NCBI GenBank assembly: GCA_001709035.1
Contig: LVKA01000011.1
Location: 1-64,000 of the forward strand
Direction of reading: 5' to 3'
Length of the DNA: 64,000 nt
Source: Candidatus Thiodiazotropha endoloripes
GTDB lineage: Bacteria > Pseudomonadota > Gammaproteobacteria > Chromatiales > Chromatiaceae
Below the pieces are notes generated by a model. That model worked only from the letters and a program-made list of their open reading frames with translations, was not told where the DNA came from and did not search any database. A program made the position numbers and the translations under genes. Shown piece by piece: positions 12,934 to 36,290 of this stretch (its first letter is position 1; every line of letters begins with the position of its first letter).

Positions 12934-12963
12934 GGCCCGGTTAAATCTACGAGGTTAGGATTC

Positions 12964-13875: not shown

Positions 13876-13885
13876 GGTAGAGACA

Positions 13886-19201: not shown

Positions 19202-19232
19202 TTAGAAACCTTTTTTTGGTCCCTCCCTATCG

Positions 19233-19259
19233 GCCGGAAGCATTTTTCGGCTTTTTTTT
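19233..19259 (+). terminator. rho-independent terminator after the transporter gene
   Basis: GCCGGAA (19233-19239) pairs with TTTCGGC (19245-19251), with one G-U pair, followed by eight T. It lies 31 nt after the stop and ends the dmpP-to-RND operon, so the DUF1302 gene needs its own promoter. Confidence 0.8.
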
Positions 19260-19297
19260 GTCTATTAAAAATTATCGAAATAATAACAAATTATCAT

Positions 19298-19323
19298 TTG
19301 ATCAATTAAAATATCGATATTTT
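19298..19323 (+). promoter_or_regulatory. composite regulatory site: XylR-type half site and FCD-operator-like palindrome
   Basis: TTGATCAATT (19298-19307) matches the first ten bases of the XylR/DmpR-type activator consensus TTGATCAATTGATCAA. It abuts a perfect 16-bp palindrome, AAAATATCGATATTTT (19308-19323), that shares its core with the repeats upstream of dmpP. The site lies about 115-90 nt before the expected start of transcription from the sigma-54 promoter at 19388. Both assignments are inference from sequence similarity. Confidence 0.55.
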
Positions 19324-19387
19324 TACGATATCCGTAACCGGCCCTTTCTGATTGTAATTATACGTAACAAAAACAATAGCTTACAAC

Positions 19388-19404
19388 TTGGCACGCCTGC
19401 TGCA
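19388..19404 (+). promoter_or_regulatory. sigma-54 promoter for the DUF1302/DUF1329 operon
   Basis: TTGGCA-N6-CTGCA with GG at 19390-19391 and GC at 19402-19403, exactly ten bases apart, fits the -24/-12 consensus. It agrees with the promoter of dmpK (32436-32452) at all 11 specified positions. Transcription should start near 19414, about 36 nt before the ATG. Confidence 0.75.
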
Positions 19405-19449
19405 TTAATAAGTCTTGCTTACATAATTCAGTATGAGGAGGAGGCTAGG

Positions 19450-21378
19450 ATGTTCCTAGACAGTCACACACAACAACCGGGAAGGAAGCATCCGGTCATT
19501 CAAGCCACACTGCTGGCGGCTGCGATTGCGGCCTGTCTGAGCGGAGGCCAGGCTCTGGCCTACACCTCCGAAGACGGCACGACGCAGGTCAACGGATTTG
19601 TTGAAAACGCCACCTACAGTCGCCGTAATGTAGGGCTGAGCAAAATGCGCAACACGGTGTTGATCGAAGGCTCCAAGGATTATGGAGAGCAGGGGTCATT
19701 TTCCAACGTCAGCTTCGTCGGTACCTTCCGGGCGACCTATGACGGTGTCTACGATCTCAACGACGATGAGTTTGGCGATAACGCCGGTGGACCCATCAAC
19801 ATGCAATCGGTAGGCGGCGCCGGTAGTACCGCCTGGGGTCAATCCGATATCTCGACCGGTGTGTTGGGATTCGGTTTCGATACCACGGAAAATCCCAATG
19901 AAGGTATGGTCAATCTGGGCCACGCACTGCACGACACGGATGGGGGTGTCGGTCTGGGCGTTCCGGTGCGTCCTTGTGATGTGGACTCCCGTGGCTGTAT
20001 CGATGACTACCTGGATTTCGAAGAGAGTGACCTGAAGTATCCGGAGTTCAACGACCGGCTCGATTTTCTGCGCGAAGCCTATCTGGACGCCACCCTGCCG
20101 ACCGAGAGTGCGGCTACCTGGAATTTTCGCCTTGGCCGTCAGCAGGTGGTCTGGGGTCGTACCGATCTGTTCCGCGTATTGGATGTGATCAATCCGGTGG
20201 ATTACTCCCGTCACAACATCTATGACGAACTGGAGGATATCCGTATCCCGATGTGGATGGCCACCGGTGAGTACCGGATGGGCGCCACCGAGACCTTCGA
20301 TGACCTGAATATGCAGTTCGTCTGGAACTTCGACAAGTTCCGTCCGAACAGCCTGGGCCAGGGTGGTACACCCTACGCGATTCTCGATGCGGGCAGCTTC
20401 TTCCGTGCGATGAAGAACTGCTGGGATAATGGTTGTTCCGTATCCAACTTCGCCGGTGGGGCGCTCTCCACCGACTTCCCGAAACATGTGATCGGTATCC
20501 GCGATGTGCATCTGCCTGACTGGTCGCTGAGTAACTCTCAGTTCGGTCTGAAACTTGAGGGTGACTATCAGGGGCTTGGATTCTCGCTGAATGCGCTGAC
20601 CTATCGTTCCCAACTACCTTCGCTGCGCGCCGTGGTGGACAATGCGGACAATCCGTTTACCCCGGAGATCGAATCGCAGAGCTACGATTATCTGATCGCC
20701 TTCGATATGTACTTCCCCAGGGTCAACCTGATCGGCGGTTCGCTCGACTTCTACGTGGATGACATCAAGTCGGTGTTCCGTGTTGAAGCGGCCTACACCG
20801 ACGGTGAGGAGTTTGCCAACACCCTGCGTCCGGAGCTCTACTCGGAGTCGGATGTATTCCGTTACGTCATCGGTTGGGATCGTCCCACCTTCATCCCCTT
20901 TCTCAACGAAAAACGTGCCTTCCTGATCTCTGCACAACTGTTTGGCGAGTATCTGGTCGACCACGAGCGGGAGACCGTCAACGGCATCGAAGCGGGTAAC
21001 CCCAATTGGGAAATCAACCACGTGGGTACCCTGCTGGTCAAAGGCTGGTATCAGAACGACCGGGTCAGTCCCCAGGTCATCATGGCTCATGACTTCAAGG
21101 CGGGCGCCAGTGTGATTGCACCCTCGATCGATTGGCTGATCAGCGACAACCTGAGACTGACCGTCGGCGCCAATGTGAAAGTGGGTGACGGTGAGCAGGA
21201 GTTTGACGATTGTCGTTCCTGTAACCCCTTTCCCCCGTTTACCGGAGATGGCGAGCCGGGTGATACCGCGCTGCGTAATCTGGCGGGTTATGAACCCCTC
21301 GGTCGGTTTCGTTCCGGGCCGATCGGTATGGCCCAGGCCGAGGATGAGTTTCAGATCACACTGCGTTATCGCTTCTAA
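19450..21378 (+). CDS. DUF1302-family outer-membrane protein (642 aa)
   Basis: Predicted outer-membrane channel-like protein. The start is set at the ATG behind GAGGAGGCTAGG. A signal peptide follows: basic region, AAAIAACLSGGQ core, cleavage near ALA-Y at about residue 38. The mature part is rich in Asp, Tyr and alternating beta segments, ends in the aromatic ITLRYRF, and has the FRLGRQQVVWGRTDLFRV block I associate with this family. DUF1302 proteins usually pair with DUF1329 and RND/YCF48 genes in hydrophobic-compound clusters. Transport of phenolics is an inference from the promoter and neighbours. Confidence 0.85.
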   Translation: MFLDSHTQQPGRKHPVIQATLLAAAIAACLSGGQALAYTSEDGTTQVNGFVENATYSRRNVGLSKMRNTVLIEGSKDYGEQGSFSNVSFVGTFRATYDGVYDLNDDEFGDNAGGPINMQSVGGAGSTAWGQSDISTGVLGFGFDTTENPNEGMVNLGHALHDTDGGVGLGVPVRPCDVDSRGCIDDYLDFEESDLKYPEFNDRLDFLREAYLDATLPTESAATWNFRLGRQQVVWGRTDLFRVLDVINPVDYSRHNIYDELEDIRIPMWMATGEYRMGATETFDDLNMQFVWNFDKFRPNSLGQGGTPYAILDAGSFFRAMKNCWDNGCSVSNFAGGALSTDFPKHVIGIRDVHLPDWSLSNSQFGLKLEGDYQGLGFSLNALTYRSQLPSLRAVVDNADNPFTPEIESQSYDYLIAFDMYFPRVNLIGGSLDFYVDDIKSVFRVEAAYTDGEEFANTLRPELYSESDVFRYVIGWDRPTFIPFLNEKRAFLISAQLFGEYLVDHERETVNGIEAGNPNWEINHVGTLLVKGWYQNDRVSPQVIMAHDFKAGASVIAPSIDWLISDNLRLTVGANVKVGDGEQEFDDCRSCNPFPPFTGDGEPGDTALRNLAGYEPLGRFRSGPIGMAQAEDEFQITLRYRF

Positions 21379-21401
21379 GAATTTGAATGGAGGTTTTGAA
21401 C

Positions 21402-22712
21402 ATGCGTTTGCTTAATACAACGCTGGTAGCGGCTCTTTTGGTGGCTGCCAACCTGCCCGCTCAGGCGGCAACTGAAGAGGATGTCGAGAACAGCTTCTTC
21501 CCCTATAAGAACGGCGGCCCTAGCTATGATGGCCTGAAGGCCGGGTTGGTGATCGATCAGACCAACGTGGCCCAATTCAAGGAGGTCCTCGATCCGGCGA
21601 TGTTCGAGTTCATCAGCCAGGGATGGACCAAGGTCAAGGTGGGAGAGACCACCTCGTTCGATCTTCACCCCAACTATGTGCAGGCGACAAGGGATGGGCT
21701 GGGAAAGGTGAAGCTGGGTGAGAAGTCCGGTGAGATCGAAGGTTTCATCGCCGGTCGTCCGTTTCCGGAAGAACCGTCGATGGACGATCCCCGTGCCGGT
21801 GAAAAGCTCGCCTGGAACTACAAGTATGGTTACAACTGGGGTGACAACGCGGCGATCTATCCTTTCTACTGGAAGTATAAGGATATGAAGTCCGGGAAAC
21901 TGGAGAGAACCATCAAGTTCAACTTCCACTTTCTCAACTACATGCACCGGGTGAATCAGGAGCCGTTGCCGGAGATTACACCGAATCCGTCCAAGCTGTT
22001 CCGTGCCATCTATGTGCAGGCGTTGGAGCCTTTTGACGTTAAGGATACCCAGCTGCTGATCCATCGCTATGAGAACGATCTGAAACGTGACAGTGCCTGG
22101 CTCTATCTTGGTTTTCAGCGCCGTGTACGCCGCCTGGCTTCAGGGCAGGTCACCGATGCGTTCCTTGGTTCCGATATCATGATCGAGGATTTCGAAGGTT
22201 ATAACGGTCGTATCAACGACATGGAGTGGACCTTCAAAGGAACCAAGAACATCCTGGTGCCATTCTACAACCATAATGCGCTGCAACTCTCCGAAGAGCA
22301 CAAAGAGTCGGATGGATACCAGTTTGTGGAGATGGGTGATAAGGGCGACTGTTTTCCACAGATTACCTGGCAGTTGCGTAAGGTCTATGAACTGGAGAAC
22401 AAGGCAAAGGATGCAAACCATCCGATCAGCAAGCGCGTTCACTTCATCGATGCGCAGACATTCACCATCCCGCGCACTTTGACCTATGACCGCAAAGGGG
22501 ACCTGTGGAAGAGCTGGCAGATCGGTCAGGCCCATCCGGATCATCACCTGCCGAAGAACAAAGGCACCGGTGTGGCCATCGATGACTCCTTTACCATGAT
22601 CGATGTGCAGGCGATGCACTGCACCACCGGGCAGTTCAAGGGACAGGTCGATCCTTCTCTGAATCCGGCCAGAAAATTCACAGTACAGAACTTGAGAGCT
22701 TCCGGTCGTTGA
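21402..22712 (+). CDS. DUF1329 periplasmic/outer-membrane-associated protein (436 aa)
   Basis: Secreted protein with a clean signal peptide (MRLLNTTLVAALLVAANLP, cleaved near AQA). The start is chosen at the ATG 8 nt after GGAGG; an in-frame ATG at 21387 overlaps that ribosome site. DUF1329 proteins have a LolB/LolA-like fold and are thought to carry hydrophobic molecules across the periplasm; the function is not proven. It is 23 nt downstream of the DUF1302 gene, in the same transcript, and is closed by a strong terminator. Confidence 0.87.
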   Translation: MRLLNTTLVAALLVAANLPAQAATEEDVENSFFPYKNGGPSYDGLKAGLVIDQTNVAQFKEVLDPAMFEFISQGWTKVKVGETTSFDLHPNYVQATRDGLGKVKLGEKSGEIEGFIAGRPFPEEPSMDDPRAGEKLAWNYKYGYNWGDNAAIYPFYWKYKDMKSGKLERTIKFNFHFLNYMHRVNQEPLPEITPNPSKLFRAIYVQALEPFDVKDTQLLIHRYENDLKRDSAWLYLGFQRRVRRLASGQVTDAFLGSDIMIEDFEGYNGRINDMEWTFKGTKNILVPFYNHNALQLSEEHKESDGYQFVEMGDKGDCFPQITWQLRKVYELENKAKDANHPISKRVHFIDAQTFTIPRTLTYDRKGDLWKSWQIGQAHPDHHLPKNKGTGVAIDDSFTMIDVQAMHCTTGQFKGQVDPSLNPARKFTVQNLRASGR

Positions 22713-22724
22713 TACCGTGCTTTT

Positions 22725-22756
22725 GTCTGGCGGCGCCAGCCGCCAGACATTTTTTG
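22725..22756 (+). terminator. rho-independent terminator after the DUF1329 gene
   Basis: Perfect 10-bp stem GTCTGGCGGC (22725-22734) / GCCGCCAGAC (22739-22748) with a four-base loop and a following T6 run. It ends the DUF1302-DUF1329 transcript. Confidence 0.9.
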
Positions 22757-22872
22757 GTTCTATGGGAAAACGGCGGATAGTGAGTTTGGTCTCATGAATC
22801 TAAACGTTTTCCCATATGGCTAAATTCATAATGTATATGAGCGAAAGTTACGTGGTGCTTAATTGAGACTTA

Positions 22873-22939
22873 TTTGGTGGGGCAGGGCCCCACCCTACCA
22901 TTAAGATCAAGCTGTAGGGTGGAGCCCTGCCCCACCAAA
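22873..22939. repeat. 26-bp near-perfect palindromic repeat
   Basis: Left arm at 22873-22898 begins TTTGGTGGGGCAGGGC; the right arm at 22914-22939 is its reverse complement with one mismatch, and the spacer is 15 nt. It lies in a 390-nt gap holding no gene, between the DUF1329 terminator and the next operon. GC-rich palindromes of this kind are usually dispersed REP-like elements. Confidence 0.8.
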
Positions 22940-23102
22940 CTCTTTGATTGAACTGAATGCGTGCCTAGAGGCCTATTAACCTAGCCAGCAGTATTCACAC
23001 TATGGCCAGGTTAATCATGAAAGTGTTCCTGACAGGCATAGGCATGCGTTGGGATGGCAAACAGGAGCGAAAAATTAATCTCTCACATTTAGGAGCTTGA
23101 CG

Positions 23103-23696
23103 ATGGTTGAACCGGTTGACGTCTATTTCTATTTCAACTTCCGCAGCCCCTACTGCTATTTGGCGACCAAGACCCTGTGGCCTATTTTCGAGGATTTTCA
23201 TACCCGCCTGGTGTGGCGTCCCCTGGGTGGCTGGGATGGCCGCTCGCCCCCGGAAGTGGCGCTGAAAAAGCTGCCGATCGCCAGGCAGGACATGGCGCGC
23301 TTTGCCAAGCGACTGGGGATACCGGTCAATCCGCCACCCAAGACCACCGATCCGACACTGGCAGGTGCGGGGTCGTTGTTGGCAGAACGTAAGGGCCTGT
23401 TAAAACCCTATATCAACGAGGTGATGCGCAAGGAGTGGGCCGATGGCGCCGACATCGGCCAGCTGGATATCCTGTTGCAGGTCGGTGAAAGCATTGGGCT
23501 CGATCGGGAGGAGTTGGCCGAAGCGGCAAACGATGCCGATAATCAGGCCCAGCTGATGCGTAACTGGCATGAGGCGGATGAAAAAGGCGCCGTGGGTGTG
23601 CCGACCTTCATCATCGGTGAAGAGATCTTCTGGGGCCAGGACCGGATCGATTTTGTACTTGAACACCTTCGAGAACTGCGGCTCTCCCGCCTATGA
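23103..23696 (+). CDS. 2-hydroxychromene-2-carboxylate isomerase-like protein (197 aa)
   Basis: DsbA-fold, kappa-GST-like enzyme. In naphthalene degraders such enzymes isomerise 2-hydroxychromene-2-carboxylate using glutathione; many homologues have unknown substrates. The N-terminal NFRSPYCYLAT holds the catalytic Ser, and the C-terminal VPTFIIGEEIFWGQDR is the typical cis-Pro region. AGGAGC 6 nt before ATG sets the start. The stop overlaps the next start (ATGA). No naphthalene dioxygenase genes are nearby, so the substrate is open. Confidence 0.87.
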   Translation: MVEPVDVYFYFNFRSPYCYLATKTLWPIFEDFHTRLVWRPLGGWDGRSPPEVALKKLPIARQDMARFAKRLGIPVNPPPKTTDPTLAGAGSLLAERKGLLKPYINEVMRKEWADGADIGQLDILLQVGESIGLDREELAEAANDADNQAQLMRNWHEADEKGAVGVPTFIIGEEIFWGQDRIDFVLEHLRELRLSRL

Positions 23697-24325
23697 GTGT
23701 TCGAACTCTGCTCTATGATAAAGAGGAGTGCCCGTTTTGCTGGCGGGTGCGGATGGCGTTGCATCACTGCAAAGTTGAATACCAGCGCCTGGCCTATGAT
23801 GAGTATGAAGATGAGTGGAGCCGATTGACGCCAAGCGGCACGGTACCGGTGCTTAAGGCAGGCGAGATGGTATTGCACGACTCATCCGTGATGCTGGAGT
23901 ATCTCGATGAGCGATATGGTGGTCTGTGGCCGACGTTGCCTGAGCAACGGGCTGAGGCGCGGGGGATCGCCCTCTATGCCGACAGTGCGGTGGGCCGGCC
24001 GGTAAGGGATCTGGTATTTCAGCGACGCGACAAACCACCTGCAGAGTGGGATGAGGAAGTGATTGCCCATGCGATGGGAGCCTGGCATCAGGCGATGCCC
24101 TATCTGGAAGAGCGACTGGCAAAGCGGAGCCACTTTGTTTCCGCTGGCGGCATCACCGATTTTATCCTGGCAACGCGCTTCGGCTTGGCGATGGCCTACG
24201 ATATGCCTTCGCCCCGCAGTCCCGGTTTAATGGCTTGGTTCAATAGAATCGCCGAGTCAGCGGAGTTTACCGAAACCGCACCGAAGGTCGTGATGGATAA
24301 ATTGGACAGGGGTTGGTTGAGATGA
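23693..24325 (+). CDS. glutathione S-transferase family protein (210 aa)
   Basis: N-terminal thioredoxin-like GST domain with ECPFCWRVRMALH, a CPFC motif typical of omega/stringent-starvation-like GSTs, then SGTVPVL (cis-Pro) and the DSSVMLEYLDERY glutathione-binding segment. A helical C-terminal domain follows. It is coupled by 4-bp overlaps to the HCCA isomerase and the ABM protein, so a shared glutathione-dependent task is likely. The substrate is unknown. Confidence 0.87.
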   Translation: MSVRTLLYDKEECPFCWRVRMALHHCKVEYQRLAYDEYEDEWSRLTPSGTVPVLKAGEMVLHDSSVMLEYLDERYGGLWPTLPEQRAEARGIALYADSAVGRPVRDLVFQRRDKPPAEWDEEVIAHAMGAWHQAMPYLEERLAKRSHFVSAGGITDFILATRFGLAMAYDMPSPRSPGLMAWFNRIAESAEFTETAPKVVMDKLDRGWLR

Positions 24326-24909
24326 CAGAGAGCAATACGATTGCAACGGGTGGCAACCTTGAGGGTGATCCACCGGTTACCGTGATGGTGACCCGTAAGC
24401 CCATCGAGGGTAAAGAGGCGGAGTTCGAAGACTACATTATCGGCATCACCAATGCGGCCATGCAGTGGCCGGGGCATATGGGCACCAATGTGTTCAGGCC
24501 GAATAAACCGGATGGCAGTTACCGTATTGTATTTAAGTTCGACCATCTGAGTAATTTGGAAAGCTGGGAGAACTCACCCGAACGGGCCGAGTGGCGGGAG
24601 ATTGCGGAGCAGGTGAGTCAGCCACGGGAGATTCAGACCATCACCGGTCTCGAAGCCTGGTTTACCCTGCCCGATTGCGCGATCAATGTGCATCCGCCGA
24701 AGTATAAGATGGCATTCCTTGTCTGGTTGGGGGTTTTCACTCTGGTAACGCTGCTGAGCCTGTTGATCGGTTCCTACATCGAAGATCTGCCGTTGGTTGT
24801 CAGGACCTTTACCCTGACCATCATCGTGGTGCCGACACTGACCTATTTTGTGTTGCCTTTCCTGACCCGGGTGTTTTCCCGTTGGCTTTATCCTTCTGGT
24901 TCTAGCTGA
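24322..24909 (+). CDS. antibiotic-biosynthesis-monooxygenase-like membrane protein (195 aa)
   Basis: N-terminal ABM domain of ferredoxin-like fold (about residues 18-110: VMVTRKPIEGKEAEFEDYI and the WENSPERAEW segment). Two C-terminal TM helices follow (about 135-155 and 165-190). Such ABM-membrane proteins occur in many bacteria without assigned activity. ATG overlaps the GST stop; an in-frame TTG lies three codons upstream. Third gene of the operon. Confidence 0.82.
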   Translation: MTESNTIATGGNLEGDPPVTVMVTRKPIEGKEAEFEDYIIGITNAAMQWPGHMGTNVFRPNKPDGSYRIVFKFDHLSNLESWENSPERAEWREIAEQVSQPREIQTITGLEAWFTLPDCAINVHPPKYKMAFLVWLGVFTLVTLLSLLIGSYIEDLPLVVRTFTLTIIVVPTLTYFVLPFLTRVFSRWLYPSGSS

Positions 24910-25040
24910 ATTTGATTCGTGTTTTAGTCTGAAAATGAACGCGAATTAACGTAAATATAGCGTCACAAAAAAACTGTGTGCGTCCATTAGGGAACTGATG
25001 TTCTCTGCCACTGGTAATTGTCATCTTGTCGGCAAGTCAC

Positions 25041-25180
25041 TGTTTCACCCTGCTGGGCGAGTCACTTTTCATTTCTCGCCAAAAGAAAAGTAAGCAAAAG
25101 AAACGGCGCCCGGCCGTCACGCCCTTTCGGGTGCGCTGCGATGCTCGGCAAAAACCGGTGGGCCTGAAATTCGCCGCGCT
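25041..25180. repeat. dispersed repeat copy 1 (about 140 bp)
   Basis: Shares long blocks with 29908-30048: TGGGCGAGTCAC, CGCCAAAAGAAAAGTAA, the GGCGCCC-type block, CCGTCACGCCC, and GCTGCGATGCTCGGCAAAAA. It lies in a 465-nt gap (24910-25374) without other visible genes. Minus-strand open frames through it are repeat-derived and should not be annotated as genes. Confidence 0.8.
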
Positions 25181-25374
25181 TGTATGGTAATTCCAGCCTT
25201 TATTGATGGATGATATGAAGGCGTCGGGAAGGGGGATCAAGAGGGCGTGGCCCCGGGTTTATCACTCGAAACTAGGGGGTAGACAGGTTTTGCCCTGTAA
25301 AGAATCGGAATCTCTTAGGATCACAGCTATAGTTTTTAACAGCGTGGGATTGTCATTGGGGGATTGAGTGGGCC

Positions 25375-26394
25375 ATGTTTAAATTTATCAAAAACCTGTT
25401 TTCGTCAGGCGAGCCGCATGCTTCTGCCTACTCCCGTGATGAACTGGACAAGCACATCGAAATGGCTGTGGAGCATTTCGACTCCCGCCTGAAGCTGATC
25501 CCGGGTTATCGTAAAAAACTTGTTCCGGCGGTTGAAAATGCCCTCATTCATACCGATGCATTGATTGCAGAGCTTCCTGGCCCCATCGATTTGAGTCGCC
25601 AGACCTACTCAAGCGATCCTCGTGTGAATGCCTATTTCGGTTCTGTCGATCAACTGGAACACCTGTTCAGTCACTCAGCTGATTTTAGCGAGTTTGTGAA
25701 AAGACCGGACAGTTTCTCACTGACACATGGTTATGCCCTGATGGTGATGAGCCGGCAGGAGAAAAGTGTATTGGGTCATGCGCAGGTCGGGGATATGATC
25801 CAGAGCGAGGTGATGCAGCAGGTGGTCAATTTTACCGCTCACCAATTGGTGAAGCCGGCAGATTCCGAGCAGAGTGTGCGGTACGATTTGCGCGAGAGAG
25901 CCTTTCAGCATCTGATTGCGGAAGCTGTATTTAAGTTGGCCAGACACACTGAGGAGAAAGCGGATCTCGATCGTGAACGGATCCATTTAAAGATGGAGCT
26001 GAAGACGCTGCAGGCTGAAGATGGTGCCCTGGATTTTGTCTCGGAAGAGATCGATCAGACCCGCAGCAGGACCGATCAGCTTAAAAAACAACTGGCCGAA
26101 GTTGAGTTGAAGCTCGATACAGCCTCCAGAGGACTGGAGACCATCAATGATTATTTCGAGTTGCTGATCAATGTCCTCAATCACTCGGAAATCTACTGTG
26201 GACTGGAAAACAGAACAGACTGTCTGGGCCAGCATAATGTTGTGGTCGATTCGAATGACGGTAGCGAAATCCCCTACGCGGAGATTCGTATCGGTAAACT
26301 GCAACGTTATGGCGTCATCGTGAAATACCCTTTGAATGAACTGAAAGAGCAGAGTCGTATTGCCAGCCAGATGAACTCGATCTATGGCAACTGA
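25375..26394 (+). CDS. hypothetical coiled-coil protein (339 aa)
   Basis: I do not recognise a family. There is no signal peptide; the first residues (MFKFIKNLFSS) could form an amphipathic membrane-binding helix. Residues about 195-250 are strongly charged heptad-like sequence (EEKADLDRERIHLKMELKTL, then RTDQLKKQLAEVELKL), predicted coiled coil. The C-terminal part is a compact alpha/beta-looking region ending SRIASQMNSIYGN. It stands alone between a repeat-bearing gap and a convergent quinone reductase gene. Confidence 0.75.
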   Translation: MFKFIKNLFSSGEPHASAYSRDELDKHIEMAVEHFDSRLKLIPGYRKKLVPAVENALIHTDALIAELPGPIDLSRQTYSSDPRVNAYFGSVDQLEHLFSHSADFSEFVKRPDSFSLTHGYALMVMSRQEKSVLGHAQVGDMIQSEVMQQVVNFTAHQLVKPADSEQSVRYDLRERAFQHLIAEAVFKLARHTEEKADLDRERIHLKMELKTLQAEDGALDFVSEEIDQTRSRTDQLKKQLAEVELKLDTASRGLETINDYFELLINVLNHSEIYCGLENRTDCLGQHNVVVDSNDGSEIPYAEIRIGKLQRYGVIVKYPLNELKEQSRIASQMNSIYGN

Positions 26395-26474
26395 ATGGTA
26401 ATCAGTTGTTGCGCATATCGCTTTACCGATTGGTAATTCGGTGAGAGGCTGACATTCAAAGCTACCAAACAGCA

Positions 26475-27455
26475 CTAATCGGGAATCAGTACCGTACTGC
26501 CGGTGGTCATCCTGTTTTCCAGGTCGTCATGTGCTTGACGCGCCTTGCTTAAAGGGTAAGTCTGGCCAATATTGATTTTCACTTTGCCGCTTTTGTAGCT
26601 ATCGAATAGCGACTGGGCGCTGCGCTGAAGCTGGTCGGTGCTTTTCACGTAATCCATCAGTGTGGGGCGGGTGATATAGAGTGAACCTTGTTGGCTCAGC
26701 CTGGTGATGTCGAACGCTGGTACCTTGCCGGACGATTGACCGAAAGAGACCAGCAGACCTCTGGGAGCAAGGCAATTCAATGAGGCTTCAAAGGTATCAA
26801 GACCGACAGAATCGTAGACAACCGGCAAGCCTCTACCTTCGGTAATTTCCATGACCCGTTGTTCGATGTTTTCAGCGCGGTAGTTGATGGTGAATCTGCA
26901 GCCGAGTTTTTCTGCCTTAGCCGCTTTCTCGGCATTGCCAACCGTACCGATCACTGTGGCACCGATCGCGGATGCCCACTGGCAGAGAATCTGTCCGACA
27001 CCTCCGGATGCCGCGTGCACCAGGATCGTCTCACCCGCTTTGACCTGGTAGGTACGGCAGATCAGATACTCAGCGGTCATACCTTTCAACATCATGGCGG
27101 CCGCTTCCCTGTCGCTGATCTCGTCGGGAATTTTTACCAGGCGTTCTGCGGGTATGTTACGGGCCTGTGCATAGGCACCTAGCGGACCTGCCCCATAGGC
27201 GACCCGGTCACCGACCGCAACGCCTTCTGCCTTTGGGCCAACCTCTTCAATGATGCCGGCAGCTTCCATGCCGGGAATGAATGGTAGTGAGGGAGGTGGG
27301 TAGAGGCCGGTACGGTGATAGACATCGATGAAGTTCAAACCGATGGCCTGGTGAGCGATACGCACTTCGCCGTCGGTGGGGTTTTGAAGTGGGACATCAG
27401 CATAGTGAAGTTTATCGCTGCCACCATGCTCGCTGATCAGGATCGCCTTGCTCAT
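26475..27455 (-). CDS. NADPH:quinone oxidoreductase, Qor type (326 aa)
   Basis: Medium-chain dehydrogenase/reductase of the zeta-crystallin/Qor type, without catalytic zinc ligands. The N-terminus MSKAILISEHGGSDKLHYAD, substrate region NFIDVYHRTGLYPP and Rossmann motif HAASGGVGQILCQWA are typical. It reduces quinones with NADPH; catechol-derived quinones are possible substrates given the neighbourhood, but this is conjecture. Length is normal. Confidence 0.9.
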   Translation of the reverse strand: MSKAILISEHGGSDKLHYADVPLQNPTDGEVRIAHQAIGLNFIDVYHRTGLYPPPSLPFIPGMEAAGIIEEVGPKAEGVAVGDRVAYGAGPLGAYAQARNIPAERLVKIPDEISDREAAAMMLKGMTAEYLICRTYQVKAGETILVHAASGGVGQILCQWASAIGATVIGTVGNAEKAAKAEKLGCRFTINYRAENIEQRVMEITEGRGLPVVYDSVGLDTFEASLNCLAPRGLLVSFGQSSGKVPAFDITRLSQQGSLYITRPTLMDYVKSTDQLQRSAQSLFDSYKSGKVKINIGQTYPLSKARQAHDDLENRMTTGSTVLIPD

Positions 27456-27502
27456 CGCTCTCTCCGTATTACTGCATCAAGCGTAGTTCAGTGTCACTAC
27501 GG

Positions 27503-28780
27503 CTAATGCAGTAGATATATGTCGTAAAGATTCAGAACCAGAATGGATAACAATACCATTACTACCCCATACAGCCCGTTCCACTTCAGGCTGTCTCCGC
27601 TCTGTTGCGCATAGCGGCCCTGCATCGCCAGATTGATGCCGGAGAAAGGACTGGTGCCAGTACCGATCGCCCAGGAGGCGATGAAGGTCATGGCCAACAG
27701 CGAGGGGTCGGGATTCAATGGCGCCAGCAGGGTGCCCAGGGCAGCGATATTGATCACCGGATGGACACCCAGAATCGAGGTCACGACCATGAACAGCAAA
27801 ACCAGCGCCGCTTCTTTTCCGTTGAATTGATCAAAGGGAAGCCAGCCGCCAAAAGCGGCGAAGACCGCATTCAGTCCAGCCGCCATGACACCGGCCGCCA
27901 GGAAAAGGGTTAATTCATTCTGCATGCCTGGCAGGTCCTTTGCGATATGTTGTCGCGCCCTTGAGCTGGGTTGCGGATGCCGCAGAAACAGAACCGACAG
28001 GGAGAGACCTGGTGCCAGTAATGCGATGATGCCCAGGATATGCCAGTCACTGTGCCACTGGTGCAGCAGCAGGACACAGATGGCCAGTATCCCGGGCAGC
28101 ACCAGTGCCTCCGGGTGCATGGGATAGCCTGTAAACTGTTGGTTGTGTTGGCATCCCAGGGCGGTCAACATCAGGGCAGCGACAGCCAGGGGAATGCCCA
28201 TCAGCCAGATCTGTGGCAGTGATGCCCCAGGGGCATAGGTCAATGCGGCCGCCATGGCGGCGAAGAAGGGAGACCAGAACGCCGCCGCGGTAAAGCCACG
28301 GGTCAGAATCACGGTTTGTGCCTGGTTAAGGCGACCTTTTCGACTGATCCGGTCGCCCATGATGAAGACCGAAGAGAGATTGATGACGGCGCCGAACAGG
28401 TGTACCCCGAGCAGGGTCGACCAGACCGCCCGTCTTCCGGATGGCAGGCGCTCTCCAGTCTGGGTATCGGGTCTGGTGATGAGTCGTAGAAAGCTGACTG
28501 CGGCCAGCATACTCAGCAGCAGAGCGTTGCCCGACAGCATCATCCGCCAGTCCGGTTGGATCTGGTGGCTAAGCCCCCAGCCGATACCGATCGCACCAAC
28601 AGCCATCAGAATCAGAATTTGCCTTCTGGACTGGGGAGAGATGTCCGCTATCAGCAGTAATCCGGCACCCCAGGTGAGTAGGCCGATTACGGTTTTTGGG
28701 AGTGCTGGTGTCAGGGTATGGACCACCGCTGCAACGATTGCGGCTGAAAGCAGCCAGCCAGCCGCTGCGCGACGATTCAC
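27503..28780 (-). CDS. polytopic membrane protein, putative transporter (425 aa)
   Basis: About 10-12 hydrophobic segments span the length. A pseudo-repeated pattern with FWSPFFAAMAAAL in the first half and ASWAIGTGTSPFSGINLAMQ in the second resembles ion-transporter (IT) superfamily proteins with two re-entrant Ser/Thr-Gly motifs. The family assignment is tentative. Its start overlaps the stop of the upstream AEC gene by 4 bp, so the two are co-translated. Confidence 0.7.
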   Translation of the reverse strand: MNRRAAAGWLLSAAIVAAVVHTLTPALPKTVIGLLTWGAGLLLIADISPQSRRQILILMAVGAIGIGWGLSHQIQPDWRMMLSGNALLLSMLAAVSFLRLITRPDTQTGERLPSGRRAVWSTLLGVHLFGAVINLSSVFIMGDRISRKGRLNQAQTVILTRGFTAAAFWSPFFAAMAAALTYAPGASLPQIWLMGIPLAVAALMLTALGCQHNQQFTGYPMHPEALVLPGILAICVLLLHQWHSDWHILGIIALLAPGLSLSVLFLRHPQPSSRARQHIAKDLPGMQNELTLFLAAGVMAAGLNAVFAAFGGWLPFDQFNGKEAALVLLFMVVTSILGVHPVINIAALGTLLAPLNPDPSLLAMTFIASWAIGTGTSPFSGINLAMQGRYAQQSGDSLKWNGLYGVVMVLLSILVLNLYDIYLLH

Positions 28781-29649
28781 AGGATGAAGACCAGAGCGAG
28801 GGGGATCACCGCCAGACTGGCGAGATTACCGAAAGCCACCATCGCAGCCACTTCGTCTGACGCACCTTGATAACGTTCCGCAAGCAGAAAATTCATCACC
28901 GCCGGGGGCAATACAGAGAACAGCAGCAGGATTTTGCCCATCTGTTCGGAGGGCTCTAGCAGTGCAATGGCGGCGATGGCACTGATCACGCCGGTGGCCG
29001 GACAGAGCAGGGCGCCGGCCAGTCCGGCCCGCCAGTGGCTGAGATCCACATGGATCAAGCGGACCCCCAGGGCGACCAGCATCAATGGAATCGCTACCTG
29101 GGAGATCATCTCCAGGCCCGGTAACAGTATTGCCGGGGTGTGCCAGTCGCCGATATGGGCGGTAATGCCGGCCAGCGTTGCAAGAAAGACCGGATTCTTC
29201 AGCAGGATCATGGGGTGCAGGCGACCACTGACCAGCCAGATGCCGAGGCTGAAATGGAGACTGGTGGAGACCACGAAGGCGACCACCGCAAAGGGCAGCA
29301 TCTCCTCACCAAAGGCCAGCGCCGCCAGCGGCAGGCCCAGGTTGCCTGAGTTGTTGAACATCATGGGGGGAAGAATCACCCGTGACCGGAAATTCAGCAG
29401 CCGGGCCAGAGGCCAGCTGAGCAGTCCGGAGCCCAGCACGATGACCACGGTGCCAAGGGCGATGGAGCGCCACTCAGGGGAGTCGGGTATCTTCTCCGAC
29501 AGGACATAGAACAGCAGTGCCGGCACAAACAGATTCATGTTGATGCGATTGGCCGAGTCCATATCGCTGCCGTTGAGCCGGCCATAGAGGTAGCCGAGCA
29601 GGGCAATGCCAAATACAGGCAGGGTGACTTCGAGTATCTGGCTGAACAT
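28777..29649 (-). CDS. AEC-family transporter (290 aa)
   Basis: Auxin-efflux-carrier family permease. It has about ten TM helices, with the starting FGIALLGYLYGRL, central NNSGNLGLPLAALAFGE and VMNFLLAERY typical of the family. Bacterial members move organic acids such as malate or malonate. First gene of a two-gene unit with the membrane protein downstream (ATGA overlap). The substrate is not evident. Confidence 0.88.
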   Translation of the reverse strand: MFSQILEVTLPVFGIALLGYLYGRLNGSDMDSANRINMNLFVPALLFYVLSEKIPDSPEWRSIALGTVVIVLGSGLLSWPLARLLNFRSRVILPPMMFNNSGNLGLPLAALAFGEEMLPFAVVAFVVSTSLHFSLGIWLVSGRLHPMILLKNPVFLATLAGITAHIGDWHTPAILLPGLEMISQVAIPLMLVALGVRLIHVDLSHWRAGLAGALLCPATGVISAIAAIALLEPSEQMGKILLLFSVLPPAVMNFLLAERYQGASDEVAAMVAFGNLASLAVIPLALVFIL

Positions 29650-29907
29650 TTAGGCTATCTCGTTAAGATTCAGGCACGCTTCTGTGCTGTTGCAATCGGG
29701 AAGGGCAAGCCGTTGTTGCACCTCTGTTGTTTTGGCTGGTAGAACCAGCCCTGCCACTCTGACCCATGCCTATTCATGTCTGGAATAAATGCATTATGGC
29801 GATGTATCCAGAATGTTCACGTTGTTGTGCTATGGTTCACTCTTCGATTAAAAAACCAATAATCAAGTCTGTAGCCACTCGTTATTGCCCTCGTATCGGA
29901 TACTCCC
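29650..29907. other. intergenic region upstream of the AEC gene
   Basis: No gene visible. It should hold the promoter of the leftward AEC operon; I see no outstanding motif. Confidence 0.35.
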
Positions 29908-30048
29908 TGTTTCGCCCTCCTGGGCGAGTCACTGTTCTTTTGCGCCAAAAGAAAAGTAACCAAAAGAAAGGGCGCCCAGCCGTCACGCCCCGACGGGTCC
30001 GCTGCGATGCTCGGCAAAAACCGGCGTGCCTGAAACTCGCTGCGCTCA
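29908..30048. repeat. dispersed repeat copy 2 (about 140 bp)
   Basis: Second copy of the repeat at 25041-25180, in the same orientation, with matching CGAGTCAC, CGCCAAAAGAAAAGTAAC, CGTCACGCCC and TGCTCGGCAAAAACCGG blocks. The rest of the gap to 30397 holds no gene that I can support. Confidence 0.8.
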
Positions 30049-30397
30049 AACAGTCAGGCCCGCTGATCGGTTTTTGACTGCGCTTCTTGCTCGTGCCGGG
30101 ACGGGAACAAGAGGAGATGGCATCGGAGTTCTGAGTATTATCGATCTCATTCCTGATCCTTAAAAGGACGCGACAACACAAATTGATTAACTGCTTTTCC
30201 TCGCCCTTCGTGCCTATCTTCAGCCTTTCTATACACTTTACATCTCTTCTATCTCGTTAGTGGTTGGGTGTTCTTACAATCGAAGAAGAGAAGCTGGAAT
30301 GACGAGTGTTGCAGTTGGCCGCCAAGGTTTATCAGACACATCACGTAGCATTTGTGTTTACTCGCGTTCATTGGCAGACATAAAAAACGAAATATGT

Positions 30398-32062
30398 CTA
30401 ATCCCCATCCCGTTTCTTCAGGCGGTAGGCCAGTTGCGGGCGGGTCATGCCGAGCAGCCTGGCGGCCTGGCTGAGATTGCCGTTGGCCTTCTCCACGGCG
30501 GACTCCAGGATCAGTGTCTCGACGGCCTCCATGCTGCCGGATTGATCCAGCACCTGTGCAACCAGCGAGTCCAAAGGCAGGGGTTCCTGTGGGTTGGTGG
30601 GCATGATGCTGGGTGCGTCCTTACTCATGTTGAGACAGGGGAAAAGATCCTTGAGATCGATGGCCTGACCATTCGGCACGATGATCACACCCCGCTCGAT
30701 CATGTTTTCCAGTTCACGGATGTTGCCCGGCCAGTTGTAATCGTACAGCGATTGCAGTGCGGGCTCAGTCACCCCGCTGACCCGTTTGCCGTGTCTGGCG
30801 GTGTACTTCTCCAGAAATCGCTCAACCAGCAGTTCGATGTCATCCTTACGCTCTCTCAGCGGTGGAATGATCACCGGGTAGATGTTCAGGCGATAGTAGA
30901 GGTCGGAGCGGAAGCGTCCTTCAGCGACCGCCTCCTGCAGATCCACATTGGTGGCGGCAATCACCCGTACATCCACCTTGCGGGTTCTGGTGTCACCGAC
31001 ACGCTCGATCTCCCCCTCCTGCAAGACCCGCAGCAGTTTGGCCTGGGCGTTCATCGACAGATCGCCGACCTCATCCAGGAACAGGGTCCCCCCATGGGCC
31101 CGCTCGAAGCGTCCGGGTCGGGATTGCAGGGCGCCGGTATAGGCCCCTTTCTCCACCCCGAACAGTTCGGATTCGATCAGCTCTTCCGGGATGGTGGTGC
31201 AGTTGATGGCGATGAAGGGATTTTTCTCCTGGGGACTGATACTGTGCAGCGCCCTGGCAAACATCTCCTTGCCCACTCCGGTCTCCCCGAGCAGCAGCAC
31301 CGTGACATGGCTCTCCGCCACTTTCCGCAGCATGTCACAGGCATCCTTGAAGGCCTGGGAGCTGCCCACCATATCGCCGATGCCAGTCTGTTCCTGCAGG
31401 GAGTCCCGCAGATGGCTTACCTCATCCTGCAGCGCCAGCAGCTGTTCCGCCATGGGATCGGGGCGGTAGTGACGTCGCTCTTCGTCCGCATCCTCCCACT
31501 CCTCGATCGGCTTGCCGATGATACGGCAGTGTTTGTCTCCCTTGGCATGGCACTCCACCTCACGATAGGCGATGAAGCGTCCCATGATCTCGCTGGTGTA
31601 GCCCGATGCGTATCCGATCTGGGTCCAGCAGACCGGCTCCGGATGGATGCCAAATAGCTTCAGATGCTCCGAGGCCTCATGGGAGTTTTCCCACAGGAAC
31701 TCGCCATAGAAATGCCGTTGACGGATATCGATATCGATTTTGATCGGTTTGACATGCACCACCCCCTCCAGGGTATGCAGTCGCGGCCCCATCAGTAGCA
31801 GATCCTCGTCATTGGCCTCCGGTAGCAGTTTGCGCGCCAGGTCCGCATCCTTGGCTCCGGAGGCATAGCCCATGCGGGTCAGTACGCCCCGTGCCCGGTC
31901 GTGGCCCAGAGTGTCCATCAGCTCTTTTCGTAGAGCCCCCATGGCGTGGGTATGCATCAAAACCATGCGGTGGTCGTTGAGCAGGATCTGTCCTGCGTCG
32001 AAAGTCAGGTGCAGGTTCCGCTCTTCCATGGGAAGACCGGAAATACTCAATTGAGATGACAT
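30398..32062 (-). CDS. phenol-responsive sigma-54 activator, MopR/DmpR type (554 aa)
   Basis: Enhancer-binding activator of the phenol hydroxylase promoter. Domains: XylR_N/V4R sensor (about 15-190), linker, AAA+ ATPase with Walker A GETGVGKE (about 259-266) and sigma-54 contact loop GAYTGA (about 306-311), and C-terminal Fis-type HTH (NGNLSQAARLLGMTRPQLAY). The sensor keeps the MopR phenol and zinc residues at a constant 10-residue offset: H96, W124, C145, E168, C171, C179. It is divergent from dmpKLMNO across 459 nt. GAYTGA instead of GAFTGA is a mild, tolerated change. Confidence 0.93.
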   Translation of the reverse strand: MSSQLSISGLPMEERNLHLTFDAGQILLNDHRMVLMHTHAMGALRKELMDTLGHDRARGVLTRMGYASGAKDADLARKLLPEANDEDLLLMGPRLHTLEGVVHVKPIKIDIDIRQRHFYGEFLWENSHEASEHLKLFGIHPEPVCWTQIGYASGYTSEIMGRFIAYREVECHAKGDKHCRIIGKPIEEWEDADEERRHYRPDPMAEQLLALQDEVSHLRDSLQEQTGIGDMVGSSQAFKDACDMLRKVAESHVTVLLLGETGVGKEMFARALHSISPQEKNPFIAINCTTIPEELIESELFGVEKGAYTGALQSRPGRFERAHGGTLFLDEVGDLSMNAQAKLLRVLQEGEIERVGDTRTRKVDVRVIAATNVDLQEAVAEGRFRSDLYYRLNIYPVIIPPLRERKDDIELLVERFLEKYTARHGKRVSGVTEPALQSLYDYNWPGNIRELENMIERGVIIVPNGQAIDLKDLFPCLNMSKDAPSIMPTNPQEPLPLDSLVAQVLDQSGSMEAVETLILESAVEKANGNLSQAARLLGMTRPQLAYRLKKRDGD

Positions 32063-32321
32063 CTATCCTCCGCCCCGCCTGTCCTGATCTCCGGGGAGTA
32101 GCAGTTGGTAGTAAAAATCATCCCTGAAAGCGTACGGGTTCTATTTGTGTTTGTTGGAAACTCGATGGCTTCCCCCATACGCTTCTATTTTTATAGTGCC
32201 AACTGAGATTTTAATCAAATAATAAATTTTCGGGTCGTTTACGGCGGGTTGAGCATATTAGATAGGGGGCGGGCATTCCGATTGTGCGGTTGCAGCATAT
32301 TTTACTGCTGAAGATTGAATG

Positions 32322-32342
32322 ATTTGGTGAAATTTGCCAAAT
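32322..32342 (+). promoter_or_regulatory. candidate upstream activating sequence for phenol hydroxylase
   Basis: Inverted repeat ATTTGG-N9-CCAAAT, also readable as tandem half sites TTGGTGAA and TTTGCCAA, related to TTGATCAA-type XylR/DmpR half sites. It lies about 120-140 nt before the expected transcription start, the usual distance for such activators. TGATCAAAC follows directly. Confidence 0.5.
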
Positions 32343-32435
32343 GATCAAACAAGTTTCACTGTATCATCAATTTTTTTCCCGCCCTGGATCTAGTAAAAGA
32401 TCAAGAAATACATATAAAACAATTACTTACTGTTT

Positions 32436-32452
32436 TTGGCATAGCTTCTGCA
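32436..32452 (+). promoter_or_regulatory. sigma-54 promoter of the phenol hydroxylase operon
   Basis: TTGGCA-N6-CTGCA, with GG at 32438-32439 and GC at 32450-32451, ten bases apart. Transcription should start near 32462, leaving about 60 nt of leader before dmpK. It matches the promoter at 19388-19404 at all 11 specified positions. Confidence 0.85.
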
Positions 32453-32521: not shown

Positions 32522-32773
32522 ATGCGGGAATATGTCCCGAAAATTGGCCAGGCCTACATCAGAGTCACCGGCGAGCGGCTCGGCAAGTTCGTCGAGTTTG
32601 AGTTCTCCATCGATGATGAGGACCTGACGGTTGAGCTGATCCTCCCCCACAAAGCTTTCAAGATCTTCTGCGACAAGCACCAGGCCAGGCTGGTCCGCAG
32701 TTCCGATGAGATCGGAACCGAAGACGGCCAGACCAAACGCCCCGGTCTCTACCGAGAGTCGCCAAGCCTTTAG
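32522..32773 (+). CDS. dmpK: phenol hydroxylase P0 assembly component (83 aa)
   Basis: Small non-catalytic subunit needed for assembling active phenol hydroxylase, possibly by aiding iron insertion. The sequence FVEFEFSIDDEDLTVELILP, then HKAFKIFC, matches the DmpK/PoxA family. Strong CAGGAGG ribosome site; first gene after the sigma-54 promoter. Confidence 0.9.
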   Translation: MREYVPKIGQAYIRVTGERLGKFVEFEFSIDDEDLTVELILPHKAFKIFCDKHQARLVRSSDEIGTEDGQTKRPGLYRESPSL

Positions 32774-32809
32774 TGGAAGATCCGCTATCCCAGGAGGAAT
32801 AGAGTAACC

Positions 32810-33808
32810 ATGAGTATCGATATCAAAACCATGAACGTGGAGCCTAAGCGCCACACCTTCGCCCACGTGGCAAGGCGCCTTGGTTCAGACGCCCCGGCCT
32901 CACGTTATGAGGAGGGAGTTTACGATCTGCAGGCCACCACCCATTTTCACTATCGCCCCCTGTGGGGTCCGGAGCACTGGCATTTCGACGAGGGCCGTAC
33001 CCAGGTCAAAATGTCCGACTGGTACAAGTTCAAGGATCCCCGTCAGTACTACTACGGCACTTACACCATTGCCCGGGCCAACATGCATCAGACCACCGAT
33101 CGCAACTTCGCCTTTGAAGAGAAGCGGGAGATGCTGGCCAACATCGATCCTGAATGGCGGGAGATGATTGTCAACTATCTGATTCCGCTGCGCCACTATG
33201 AATGGGGCGCCAATATGAATGCCTGTTCGATCAGCGATACAGGTTATGGCACCGCCATCACATCGGCGGCGATCTTCACCGCCGGTGATCGTCTGGGTAT
33301 CGCACAGATCCTCTCCCGTGTCGGTATCTCTCTGGGTAATGGCACGGGCGACCTGCTGGACGATGCCAAAGCACAGTGGATGAATGGCCCGGCCTGGCAG
33401 GGCATGCGCAAGTGTGTGGAGGACAGCCTGGTGTTGAAGGATTGGTTCGAGGCGCTGGTGGCCCAGTTCCTGGTGATGGATGGTCTGGTCTATCCCCTGG
33501 TCTACAACCACATCGATACCGAAGGGCAGAAGCATGGTGCGGCGGCGATCTCGATACTCTGCGAATTTATGGTCGACTGGAGTGCGGAGCACAATCGCTG
33601 GGTCGACGCGGTGATCAAGGTGGCGGCCAAGGAGTCGGAGGAGAACCAGGCGTTGCTCTCCAGCTGGTATAGCCAGTGGCGGGATGAGACCCATAAGGCC
33701 TTACAGCCCCTGGCTGCCATGGTGCTGGGTGATGGTGCCGACAGTGCTCTCGCCGATGTCAAAGAACAACTTGATAAGCGGGCCGGCAAGCTCGGTTTGA
33801 ACCTATAA
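32810..33808 (+). CDS. dmpL: phenol hydroxylase P1 (beta) subunit (332 aa)
   Basis: Beta subunit of the (alpha-beta-gamma)2 hydroxylase. It has a ferritin-like fold related to the alpha subunit but without diiron ligands. YDLQATTHFHYRPLWGPEHW and the SDWYKFKDPRQYYYGTYT stretch are typical of bacterial multicomponent monooxygenase beta chains. AGGAGG ribosome site. It packs against DmpN. Confidence 0.93.
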   Translation: MSIDIKTMNVEPKRHTFAHVARRLGSDAPASRYEEGVYDLQATTHFHYRPLWGPEHWHFDEGRTQVKMSDWYKFKDPRQYYYGTYTIARANMHQTTDRNFAFEEKREMLANIDPEWREMIVNYLIPLRHYEWGANMNACSISDTGYGTAITSAAIFTAGDRLGIAQILSRVGISLGNGTGDLLDDAKAQWMNGPAWQGMRKCVEDSLVLKDWFEALVAQFLVMDGLVYPLVYNHIDTEGQKHGAAAISILCEFMVDWSAEHNRWVDAVIKVAAKESEENQALLSSWYSQWRDETHKALQPLAAMVLGDGADSALADVKEQLDKRAGKLGLNL

Positions 33809-33820
33809 CAGGAGGCCGAG

Positions 33821-34093
33821 ATGGCTGGCATCGTATCCATAACCCTGCAAAACAATGATGAGGCTCGTCCCGTGATCGAGTCGATTCTGCAAGACAACCC
33901 CAGCGCCAACGCCAACTACATGCCCGGCGCGGTCAAGATCGACTGCCCGGAGCGCCTGGTGGTCAAGGCGGAGTCTGTATCCGAGCGTATCGGTCGCGAC
34001 TGGGATCCTCAGGAGATCCATCTCACCATCGTATCCATGGGCGGCAGCCTGGATGAGGACGATGACGAGCTGGTCCTCTCCTGGGGCGCTTAA
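33821..34093 (+). CDS. dmpM: phenol hydroxylase P2 effector protein (90 aa)
   Basis: Cofactor-free regulatory protein that binds the hydroxylase and gates its diiron chemistry (the MmoB/DmpM class). IVSITLQNNDEARPVIESIL and an acidic C-terminal tail are characteristic. ACAGGAGG 7 nt before ATG. Its end lies in one arm of an inverted-repeat element that separates it from dmpN. Confidence 0.93.
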   Translation: MAGIVSITLQNNDEARPVIESILQDNPSANANYMPGAVKIDCPERLVVKAESVSERIGRDWDPQEIHLTIVSMGGSLDEDDDELVLSWGA

Positions 34094-34222
34094 CCCGAAT
34101 GTTTCACCCGGCCGCTTCTAATTCAAATTAACTCATGGTTTTTGAAAATGATTTTTTCAGATATCAGTAAACACACAATGTGTTACCGGCAATCGCTGAA
34201 CGCGATGAAACATTCGGGTTAA
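34090..34222. repeat. 133-bp element with 17-bp perfect terminal inverted repeats
   Basis: TTAACCCGAATGTTTCA at 34090-34106 and its exact complement TGAAACATTCGGGTTAA at 34206-34222 bracket an AT-rich stretch between dmpM and dmpN. The left arm overlaps the dmpM stop codon and the right arm ends shortly before the dmpN ribosome site. A related sequence, GAACCCGAATATTTAA, sits at about 41693-41708. It could be a small MITE-like insertion or an intercistronic mRNA structure. Confidence 0.7.
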
Positions 34223-34240
34223 CACCGGAGGAGCTAATCA

Positions 34241-35764: not shown

Positions 35765-35835
35765 GGCCTTAACCCGCCCGCTGTCAGGTTGTGATGGTGG
35801 GTGGCACCAATGAGATCAAGAGAGAGGAGGTTGAG

Positions 35836-36204: not shown

Positions 36205-36252
36205 CGAAAAACCGGCAATAGCAGACCGGTTGGATTGATTGTTTAGTTACCG

Positions 36253-36270: not shown

Positions 36271-36290
36271 AACTATAGGAGGCTTCACTG

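Follow-up and report, generated by a model that had tools for sequence, protein, structure and literature searches.

The locus described here raises the question of whether a phenol hydroxylase operon and a pair of genes for DUF1302 and DUF1329 proteins, located 13 kb from it, are placed under the same regulator, and whether the pair receives a second signal of its own. It lies within a stretch of 64,000 nucleotides (hereafter the window; positions 1 to 64,000 of contig LVKA01000011.1, assembly GCA_001709035.1) of Candidatus Thiodiazotropha endoloripes, whose genome of 4.87 Mb is distributed over 25 contigs. Matches of the DUF1302 gene to Candidatus Thiodiazotropha genomes reach 99%. The sequence comparisons presented below pointed to dual control, a reading that we consider very probable: the DUF1302-DUF1329 pair would answer to both a MopR-type activator and an FCD-type repressor, and dmpK to the activator alone. 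The elements that carry this reading are the following.

7323–8060, minus strand: GntR/FCD regulator, AphS/BphS-type (PF07729 and PF00392)
19290–19305: activator site ATTATCATTTGATCAA, an upstream activating sequence (UAS) of the AphR/XylR/MopR type, centred about 92 bp upstream of the -24 GG
19308–19323: FCD (AphS/BphS-type) operator palindrome AAAATATCGATATTTT, matching AAATATCGATATTT at 14/14 positions over 19309–19322
19388–19404, plus strand: sigma-54 promoter of the DUF1302-DUF1329 unit, TTGGCACGCCTGCTGCA, an exact TTGGCA-N6-CTGCA
19450–21378, plus strand: DUF1302 protein, AmeA-like (PF06980, E 3.4e-48; start ATG picked after GAGGAGG)
21387–22712, plus strand: DUF1329 protein, AmeB-like (PF07044, E 2.1e-76)
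30398–32062, minus strand: MopR/PoxR/DmpR-type sigma-54 activator, with the XylR_N, V4R, AAA+ and Fis-type helix-turn-helix domains of that class
32333–32348: dmpK activator site TTTGCCAAATGATCAA, the best there, lying in conserved blocks of the genus alignment
32436–32452, plus strand: sigma-54 promoter of dmpK, TTGGCATAGCTTCTGCA, an exact TTGGCA-N6-CTGCA
32522–37211, plus strand: dmpK, L, M, N, O and catechol 2,3-dioxygenase (C23O); DmpL, DmpN and C23O assigned by Pfam, DmpK, DmpM and DmpO by size, position and matching gene order in relatives

The twin TTGGCA-N6-CTGCA sites had been claimed in a preliminary description of this DNA, and their coordinates and strand proved correct. Both fit TGGCA-N7-TGC with the GG-N10-GC spacing of -24/-12 promoters, and the two exact matches in the window compare with 0.03 expected, a count of two being reached in 0/100 shuffles. 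The genome scan suggested in the same description returned nine exact matches in 4.87 Mb and none for the reversed pattern. Start codons follow both sites, the DUF1302 ATG (19450) being 60 bp after the first G of the GG, and the genome has a single rpoN. With an approximate matrix (maximum 19.1; its 12.4 cut was picked after the scores were known), the DUF1302 promoter scored 18.1 and the dmpK promoter 14.3; on these scores the twin promoters are unequal. A looser consensus, TGGCAC-N5-TTGCW with two mismatches, was set aside as uninformative alone (34 in the window, 37 expected). The composite pattern TGATNAA, 70–100 bases, TGGCAY-N5-YTGCW occurred only at the two promoters in 4.87 Mb, with no match to a reversed control; it was written after both promoters were known, so that their matching is by construction and the absence of others is the result. 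A slightly looser composite was found at three places in the source genome and matched in 19 of the 22 genus genomes, the three without it being those without MopR; some of these matches, including both in genome G153, lie elsewhere in the genomes.

The activator site of the DUF1302 promoter agrees with TTGATCAWWTGATCAA at 14/16 positions and is the sole site in the window scoring 14 or more. It holds ATCATTTGATCA, identical to the core of the AphR motif GCTTGATCATTTGATCATGC predicted in the available excerpts of Suvorova and Gelfand (2019; PMC6449761). The XylR-type half site described earlier, TTGATCAATT, is indeed present (19298–19307); it overlaps the 16-bp palindrome-like site at 19290–19305, whose core is conserved in the genus, and is better described as part of a full site. 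The palindromic UAS about 100–200 bp upstream that characterizes AphR/XylR/DmpR-type promoters was found at DUF1302.

The 14-bp operator core (19309–19322) begins three bases past the activator site, and AAAATATCGATATTTT fits the AphS/BphS operator motif AwATATCGATATwT (PMC6449761). In its exact form, AATATCGATATT occurs once in the genome, at this operator. The best reading of this arrangement is that an FCD operator sits between the enhancer and the sigma-54 promoter of the DUF1302 half. No FCD operator was found at dmpK, the best match in 47 dmpK promoters being 10/14 in a scan of 50–220 bp upstream of the GG or, for promoters in which no sigma-54 site passed, of a generic stretch. The regulator at 7323–8060 combines GntR and FCD domains with a AAATATCGATATTT-like operator upstream of itself, as AphS/BphS-type proteins do. 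It is 43.8% identical to a GntR protein of Polaromonas pPNAP01 whose gene adjoins genes for an aromatic dioxygenase and BphX; the order of the genes downstream is consistent with that of the bphS-A1-A2-X-A3-A4 operon mentioned in PMC6449761. Among distant loci with a homologue of this regulator, 7/7 carry at least one site of 11/14 or better within 260 bp upstream.

Conservation across the genus was examined in 22 genomes. Nineteen carry a full-length DUF1302 gene at 84% or more and the same 19 carry a MopR orthologue, which in 17 of them is full length and at least 84% identical; the other three (G118, G147 and G159) have neither. The sigma-54 site, the UAS core and the FCD operator (12/14 or better) recur at near-constant spacing in 18/19 DUF1302 promoters, with the UAS core centred at -91 to -94 and the operator at -73 to -76 from the GG. 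The exception is G153, whose upstream region is rearranged. Over the 18 promoters, mean pairwise identity was 0.929 for the operator, the most identical of the eight promoter blocks measured, 0.865 for the sigma-54 site, 0.862 for the UAS and 0.505 for a 48-bp spacer. A UAS was detected at p 0.05 or less in 16 of 17 DUF1302 promoters with a sigma-54 site (the miss being L042), in a test with 100 shuffles per promoter from which L092–L121, genes with less than 300 bp upstream and matches starting past residue 40 were left out. At dmpK, 17/19 genus promoters passed the sigma-54 cut of 12.4 (L131 and L140 failed).

Three genomes deserve separate mention. In G157 (L139) the MopR orthologue is an open frame, 73% identical overall and 85% over residues 184–552, the sensor part being more diverged. 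In G158 (L140, a 2.6-Mb genome) it is in pieces with an internal TAA and the dmpK promoter is low-scoring, with the DUF1302 promoter kept; decay in a reduced genome is possible. In G153 (L050, L166) the stretch from the meta genes through YCF48 and RND to the sigma-54 promoter is missing, and the start of a dmpP-like gene joins the leader of DUF1302 at a short word common to both. This junction, a deletion or an assembly error, would place DUF1302 behind an FCD-controlled promoter.

The activator had been described as encoded at 30398, and the MopR-type reading frame is indeed found at 30398–32062; it is on the minus strand, however, and the gene starts at 32062, divergent from dmpK (32522). 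Among solved chains its sensor domain is closest to PoxR, then to MopR. His106, Trp134 and three Cys of MopR (5kbe), which we take to be the ligand residues and the zinc ligands, respectively, are identical in the aligned window protein. The GAFTGA-like loop reads GAYTGA, as likewise reported for MphR (PMC3063778). The genome has two XylR_N regulators, the second of which (contig 7, 604144–605781) adjoins a ferredoxin gene and a second catechol dioxygenase-like gene. At locus L152 (6130–9995), genes for a ferredoxin and a catechol dioxygenase-like protein are divergent from a second XylR-type regulator; a sigma-54-like site is found near 8135–8150 and the FCD-like word AATATCGATTTT upstream.

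The remaining features of the locus concern the other genes and the weaker or additional sites.

8163–8224: three FCD operators (8163, 8193 and 8211) between the FCD gene and dmpP
8238–9296, plus strand: dmpP-like reductase (Fer2, FAD_binding_6, NAD_binding_1), divergent from the FCD gene; in relatives, homologues are located after dmpO
10054–15705, plus strand: meta-cleavage pathway genes, upstream of YCF48-MMPL
15822–16808, plus strand: YCF48/BNR-repeat protein, COG4447/AmeC-like (PF14870)
16805–19201, plus strand: RND (MMPL) transporter, AmeD-like (PF03176)
19232–19260, plus strand: terminator-like stem-loop and T-run after MMPL (1 found, 0.3 expected)
19270–19283: weaker FCD-like site AATTATCGAAATAA on the far side of the UAS (10/14; genus block identity 0.829)
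19322–19337: possible further activator site, degenerate (below 10/16 in the window) and offset by 32 bp from the first
Between the DUF1329 gene (ends 22712) and the activator gene (from 30398): DsbA- and GST-like genes
32316–32331 and 32355–32370: weaker neighbours of the dmpK activator site (11/16)

The AmeABCD-type gene set (DUF1302, DUF1329, YCF48 and RND) is therefore complete in the window. Among solved structures, DUF1302 had no match at E 1 or less, and a plasmid search with it returned two records. The three FCD operators before dmpP recur at the same places, with 30/18 bp spacing, in 12/12 further genus loci, the third in L185 falling just below the 11/14 cut. The dmpP-like gene lies about 23 kb from dmpKLMNO (32522–36204) and divergent from the FCD regulator, and the phenol hydroxylase seems to be one enzyme split between two promoters.

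Paired AphR-type sites with centres 29–42 bp apart are described in the excerpts of PMC6449761. The top offsets between activator sites were -29 at YCF48, -30 at other dmpK promoters and +31 at Thiodiazotropha dmpK; at DUF1302 promoters (n=14) an offset of +32 ranked second (z 2.6), after -15. The values other than -15 would be in line with the published pairing. The second site at 19322–19337 is clear only in relatives L023 and L024 (13/16, counted by eye in the alignment).

The distance between MMPL and DUF1302, with gene ends extrapolated from tblastn, spans 247–1831 bp in 13/13 loci of Thiodiazotropha, against a median of 39 bp for the 59 other cassettes. The terminator-like site was seen by eye in 13 of 16 alignment rows (not in L023, L024 and L025). 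Given the long gap and this site, the idea that the DUF1302 pair is a mere tail of the RND operon was dropped, and the best explanation is that it forms a predicted transcription unit of its own.

The cassette was then compared in other lineages by scanning 450 bp upstream of genes in loci L013–L099, where some genomes occur twice (e.g., L019 and L096). A sigma-54 score of at least 10 was reached at dmpK in 18/18 cases, dmpL in 28/28 (largely the same promoters), DUF1302 in 26/79 and YCF48 in 35/62. The comparison genes gave 0/27 for DmpN, 0/13 for C23O, 1/20 for HOA, 4/68 for MMPL, 4/81 for DUF1329, 2/24 for HMSDH, 3/27 for the reductase and 3/28 for MopR. Outside Thiodiazotropha, the site mostly precedes YCF48, the first cassette gene. 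Outside the loci orthologous to that of the window, YCF48 is preceded by a sigma-54 site together with a UAS in 23 of the 28 loci that have MopR or phenol hydroxylase in the neighbourhood, versus 3 of 22 without (L025, L090 and L091). A locus was classed as linked when the retrieved sequence, which extended up to 10 kb on each side, contained MopR, DmpL or DmpN; unlinked loci may thus be linked farther off, and L068, whose MopR fragment is just under the length cut, was counted as unlinked. The Fisher value of 2e-6 is uncorrected for kinship, 13 of the 28 linked rows being Marinobacter, and without these rows the comparison is 10/15 versus 3/22; the 22 unlinked rows include four second cassettes from Thiodiazotropha genomes, and removing these leaves 3/18. 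Among MopR-linked YCF48 promoters with a sigma-54 site, 22/23 had a UAS at p 0.05 or less. The linked loci lacking the combination were L047, L054, L058, L072 and L075; at L047, L054 and L072 an FCD gene and YCF48 are immediate divergent neighbours whose intergenic region carries FCD-type sites but no sigma-54 site. The second DUF1302 cassettes (about 52% identical) of some Thiodiazotropha genomes (L064, L067, L069 and L071) showed no sigma-54 score of at least 10 before DUF1302 or YCF48.

A sigma-54 site and UAS directly before DUF1302 were found in two other lineages, Pseudomaricurvus alkylphenolicus (L025) and Niveispirillum (L086). An own promoter for the DUF1302 half, as predicted from these sites, is hence not unique to Thiodiazotropha. 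No FCD operator was seen at the L025 and L086 DUF1302 promoters; among the sigma-54-bearing DUF1302 promoters compared, the added operator was seen only in Thiodiazotropha. The Niveispirillum cassette flanks MopR, with YCF48-RND on the strand opposite to DUF1302, and each of YCF48 and DUF1302 is preceded by sigma-54 and activator sites. Altogether, the conserved promoters (18/19), the co-occurrence of the genes and the other lineages lend support to the earlier suggestion that the activator would reach both dmpK and the DUF1302 pair, and the conserved operator supports the predicted second, FCD-type input.

In the mechanism that we propose, the MopR-type activator (30398–32062), presumably with a phenolic inducer bound, would occupy ATTATCATTTGATCAA, some 92 bp upstream from the -24 element, and drive RpoN polymerase at the DUF1302 promoter, as it would at dmpK 13 kb away. 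The FCD regulator (7323–8060) would occupy AAAATATCGATATTTT and block activation until its own ligand, probably a ring-cleavage product, releases it. The activator alone would suffice at dmpK, whereas the transporter pair would need the activator plus release of the repressor, an AND logic. Since the transporter promoter shares the activator and sigma-54 sites and has a repressor site in addition, it is probably on only when two conditions are met. YCF48 and RND, at the end of the meta-pathway genes, would stand behind the FCD-operator-bearing dmpP promoter, presumably on one transcript. We infer the repressor logic by analogy with AphS and an export role by analogy with AmeABCD.

Several observations weigh against dual control or weaken its support. 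The genus counts are not independent, as ancestry is shared. Activator sites are degenerate: TTGATCAATTGATCAA with up to three mismatches has 84 genome places, and this count was discarded as unspecific, its reversed control (0) being unfair because the reversed word contains CTAG; the first UAS word used was approximate. The dmpK activator site of the window reaches just 13/16 (p 0.03, 100 shuffles), two of the 17 sigma-54-bearing genus dmpK promoters miss UAS p 0.05 (15 pass), and the activator sites of the DUF1302 promoter are weakly paired. Among YCF48 promoters outside the genus, no UAS could be detected with the sigma-54 site of L068, L081 and L085, and L058 fell short of p 0.05. With one mismatch, AATATCGATATT has 31 genome places, and the reversed word five. 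Finally, the second XylR-type regulator is 63% identical to the first (351/554 aligned), with a nearly identical recognition helix.

This last resemblance is the basis for proposing that the contig 7 regulator, or another sigma-54 activator, drives the DUF1302 promoter, and its own divergent promoter also has a sigma-54-like site and TGATCAT-type words, judged by eye. The paralogue was not among the matches listed in 10 of the 19 genomes with a MopR orthologue (matches were listed to about 245 bits and paralogues score about 770; the G151 copy, in two pieces, was counted as present). Since the sigma-54 site, FCD operator and UAS core are all kept in 9 of these 10 genomes (among these nine G158, whose MopR has an internal stop), the MopR beside dmpK is favoured as the activator and the proposal is improbable. 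That the FCD palindrome is real but acts in another way (activation, DNA bending, or no effect), without an AND gate, is unlikely, though the least so of the alternatives. In the excerpts of PMC3063778, AphS of Comamonas TA441 has one binding site around a putative IHF site, outside the UAS, a geometry unlike an operator abutting the UAS; however, AphS completely represses AphR-driven transcription there, and the palindrome is the best conserved promoter block in our alignment. Most expression of DUF1302-DUF1329 might instead come from a sigma-70 promoter or from transcripts that run on out of the meta-pathway, YCF48 and RND genes, with the sigma-54 site playing a minor part; such an arrangement would suit the tight spacing of most other cassettes and a weak sigma-70-like match (9/12) at 19283–19312 on the plus strand. 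The terminator-like site, the gap found in every Thiodiazotropha locus measured and the conserved promoter make this quite improbable. Even less credible is a chance match or relic: of the seven other exact TTGGCA-N6-CTGCA matches in the genome, six were examined and none has an activator site above 12/16 in the 50–220 bp upstream, but the low expectation in the window, the near-fixed conserved spacing and the confinement of the composite pattern to these two places all speak against it.

Dual control by MopR and FCD thus remains our preferred reading. A broader and more tentative one, which we hold at somewhat less than an even chance, is that the repressor has been reassigned. In Comamonas, a repressor of this type guards the phenol hydroxylase; in Thiodiazotropha it would guard dmpP, the meta-pathway and the DUF1302-DUF1329 half, leaving the oxygenase to the activator only, and the cassette halves would differ in logic, with a substrate-and-flux AND gate. 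As part of this same tentative reading, one transporter would have been wired in several ways by the same two regulator types: with a Marinobacter-type activator before YCF48, with FCD only (L047, L054 and L072), or split over two strands (L086). The cassette may thereby illustrate a series of rewirings in nature, with the activator alone, the repressor alone or both in control.

The outline of this regulation is already known, since the excerpts of PMC6449761 list COG4447, COG1033, PF07044 and DUF1302 as predicted members under AphR (Burkholderia sp. 383), AphS or AphT in betaproteobacteria, and propose a role of these families in coping with toxic aromatics. In the literature searched, as far as its text was available, we found no report of a promoter within the cassette, rather than at dmpK, where the sites of both regulators come together, or of its occurrence in lucinid symbionts, and a search for Thiodiazotropha with phenol hydroxylase found none. 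The gene content suggests that lucinid symbionts may meet and degrade phenolic compounds, and a transporter of two domain-of-unknown-function families is here tied to a phenol regulon in an animal-symbiont lineage (clams).

The window shares with the AphR/AphS regulons of PMC6449761 the same four families, the same AphR and AphS motifs and -12/-24 promoters. It differs from those described there in belonging to a symbiotic gammaproteobacterium and in that both sites meet on the DUF1302-DUF1329 promoter, with no FCD operator found at dmpK. The Zoogloea oleivorans phenol hydroxylase cluster (PMC7012976) likewise groups a sigma-54 regulator, DUF1302, DUF1329, catechol 2,3-dioxygenase and DmpKLMNOP. 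As in the aph/phc genes of Comamonas testosteroni TA441/R5 (PMC3063778), an XylR/DmpR-type activator and a GntR repressor would act on one phenol-gene promoter; in TA441/R5, however, the repressor acts on the phenol hydroxylase operon, whereas here its predicted sites are at the transporter promoter and dmpP. The same four protein families make up AmeABCD of Castellaniella defragrans (PMC6394551), which is inducible and whose deletion lowers tolerance to monoterpene substrates. AmeABCD is described there for monoterpenes, while the putative transporter set in the window is linked to phenol hydroxylase and split by a predicted promoter.

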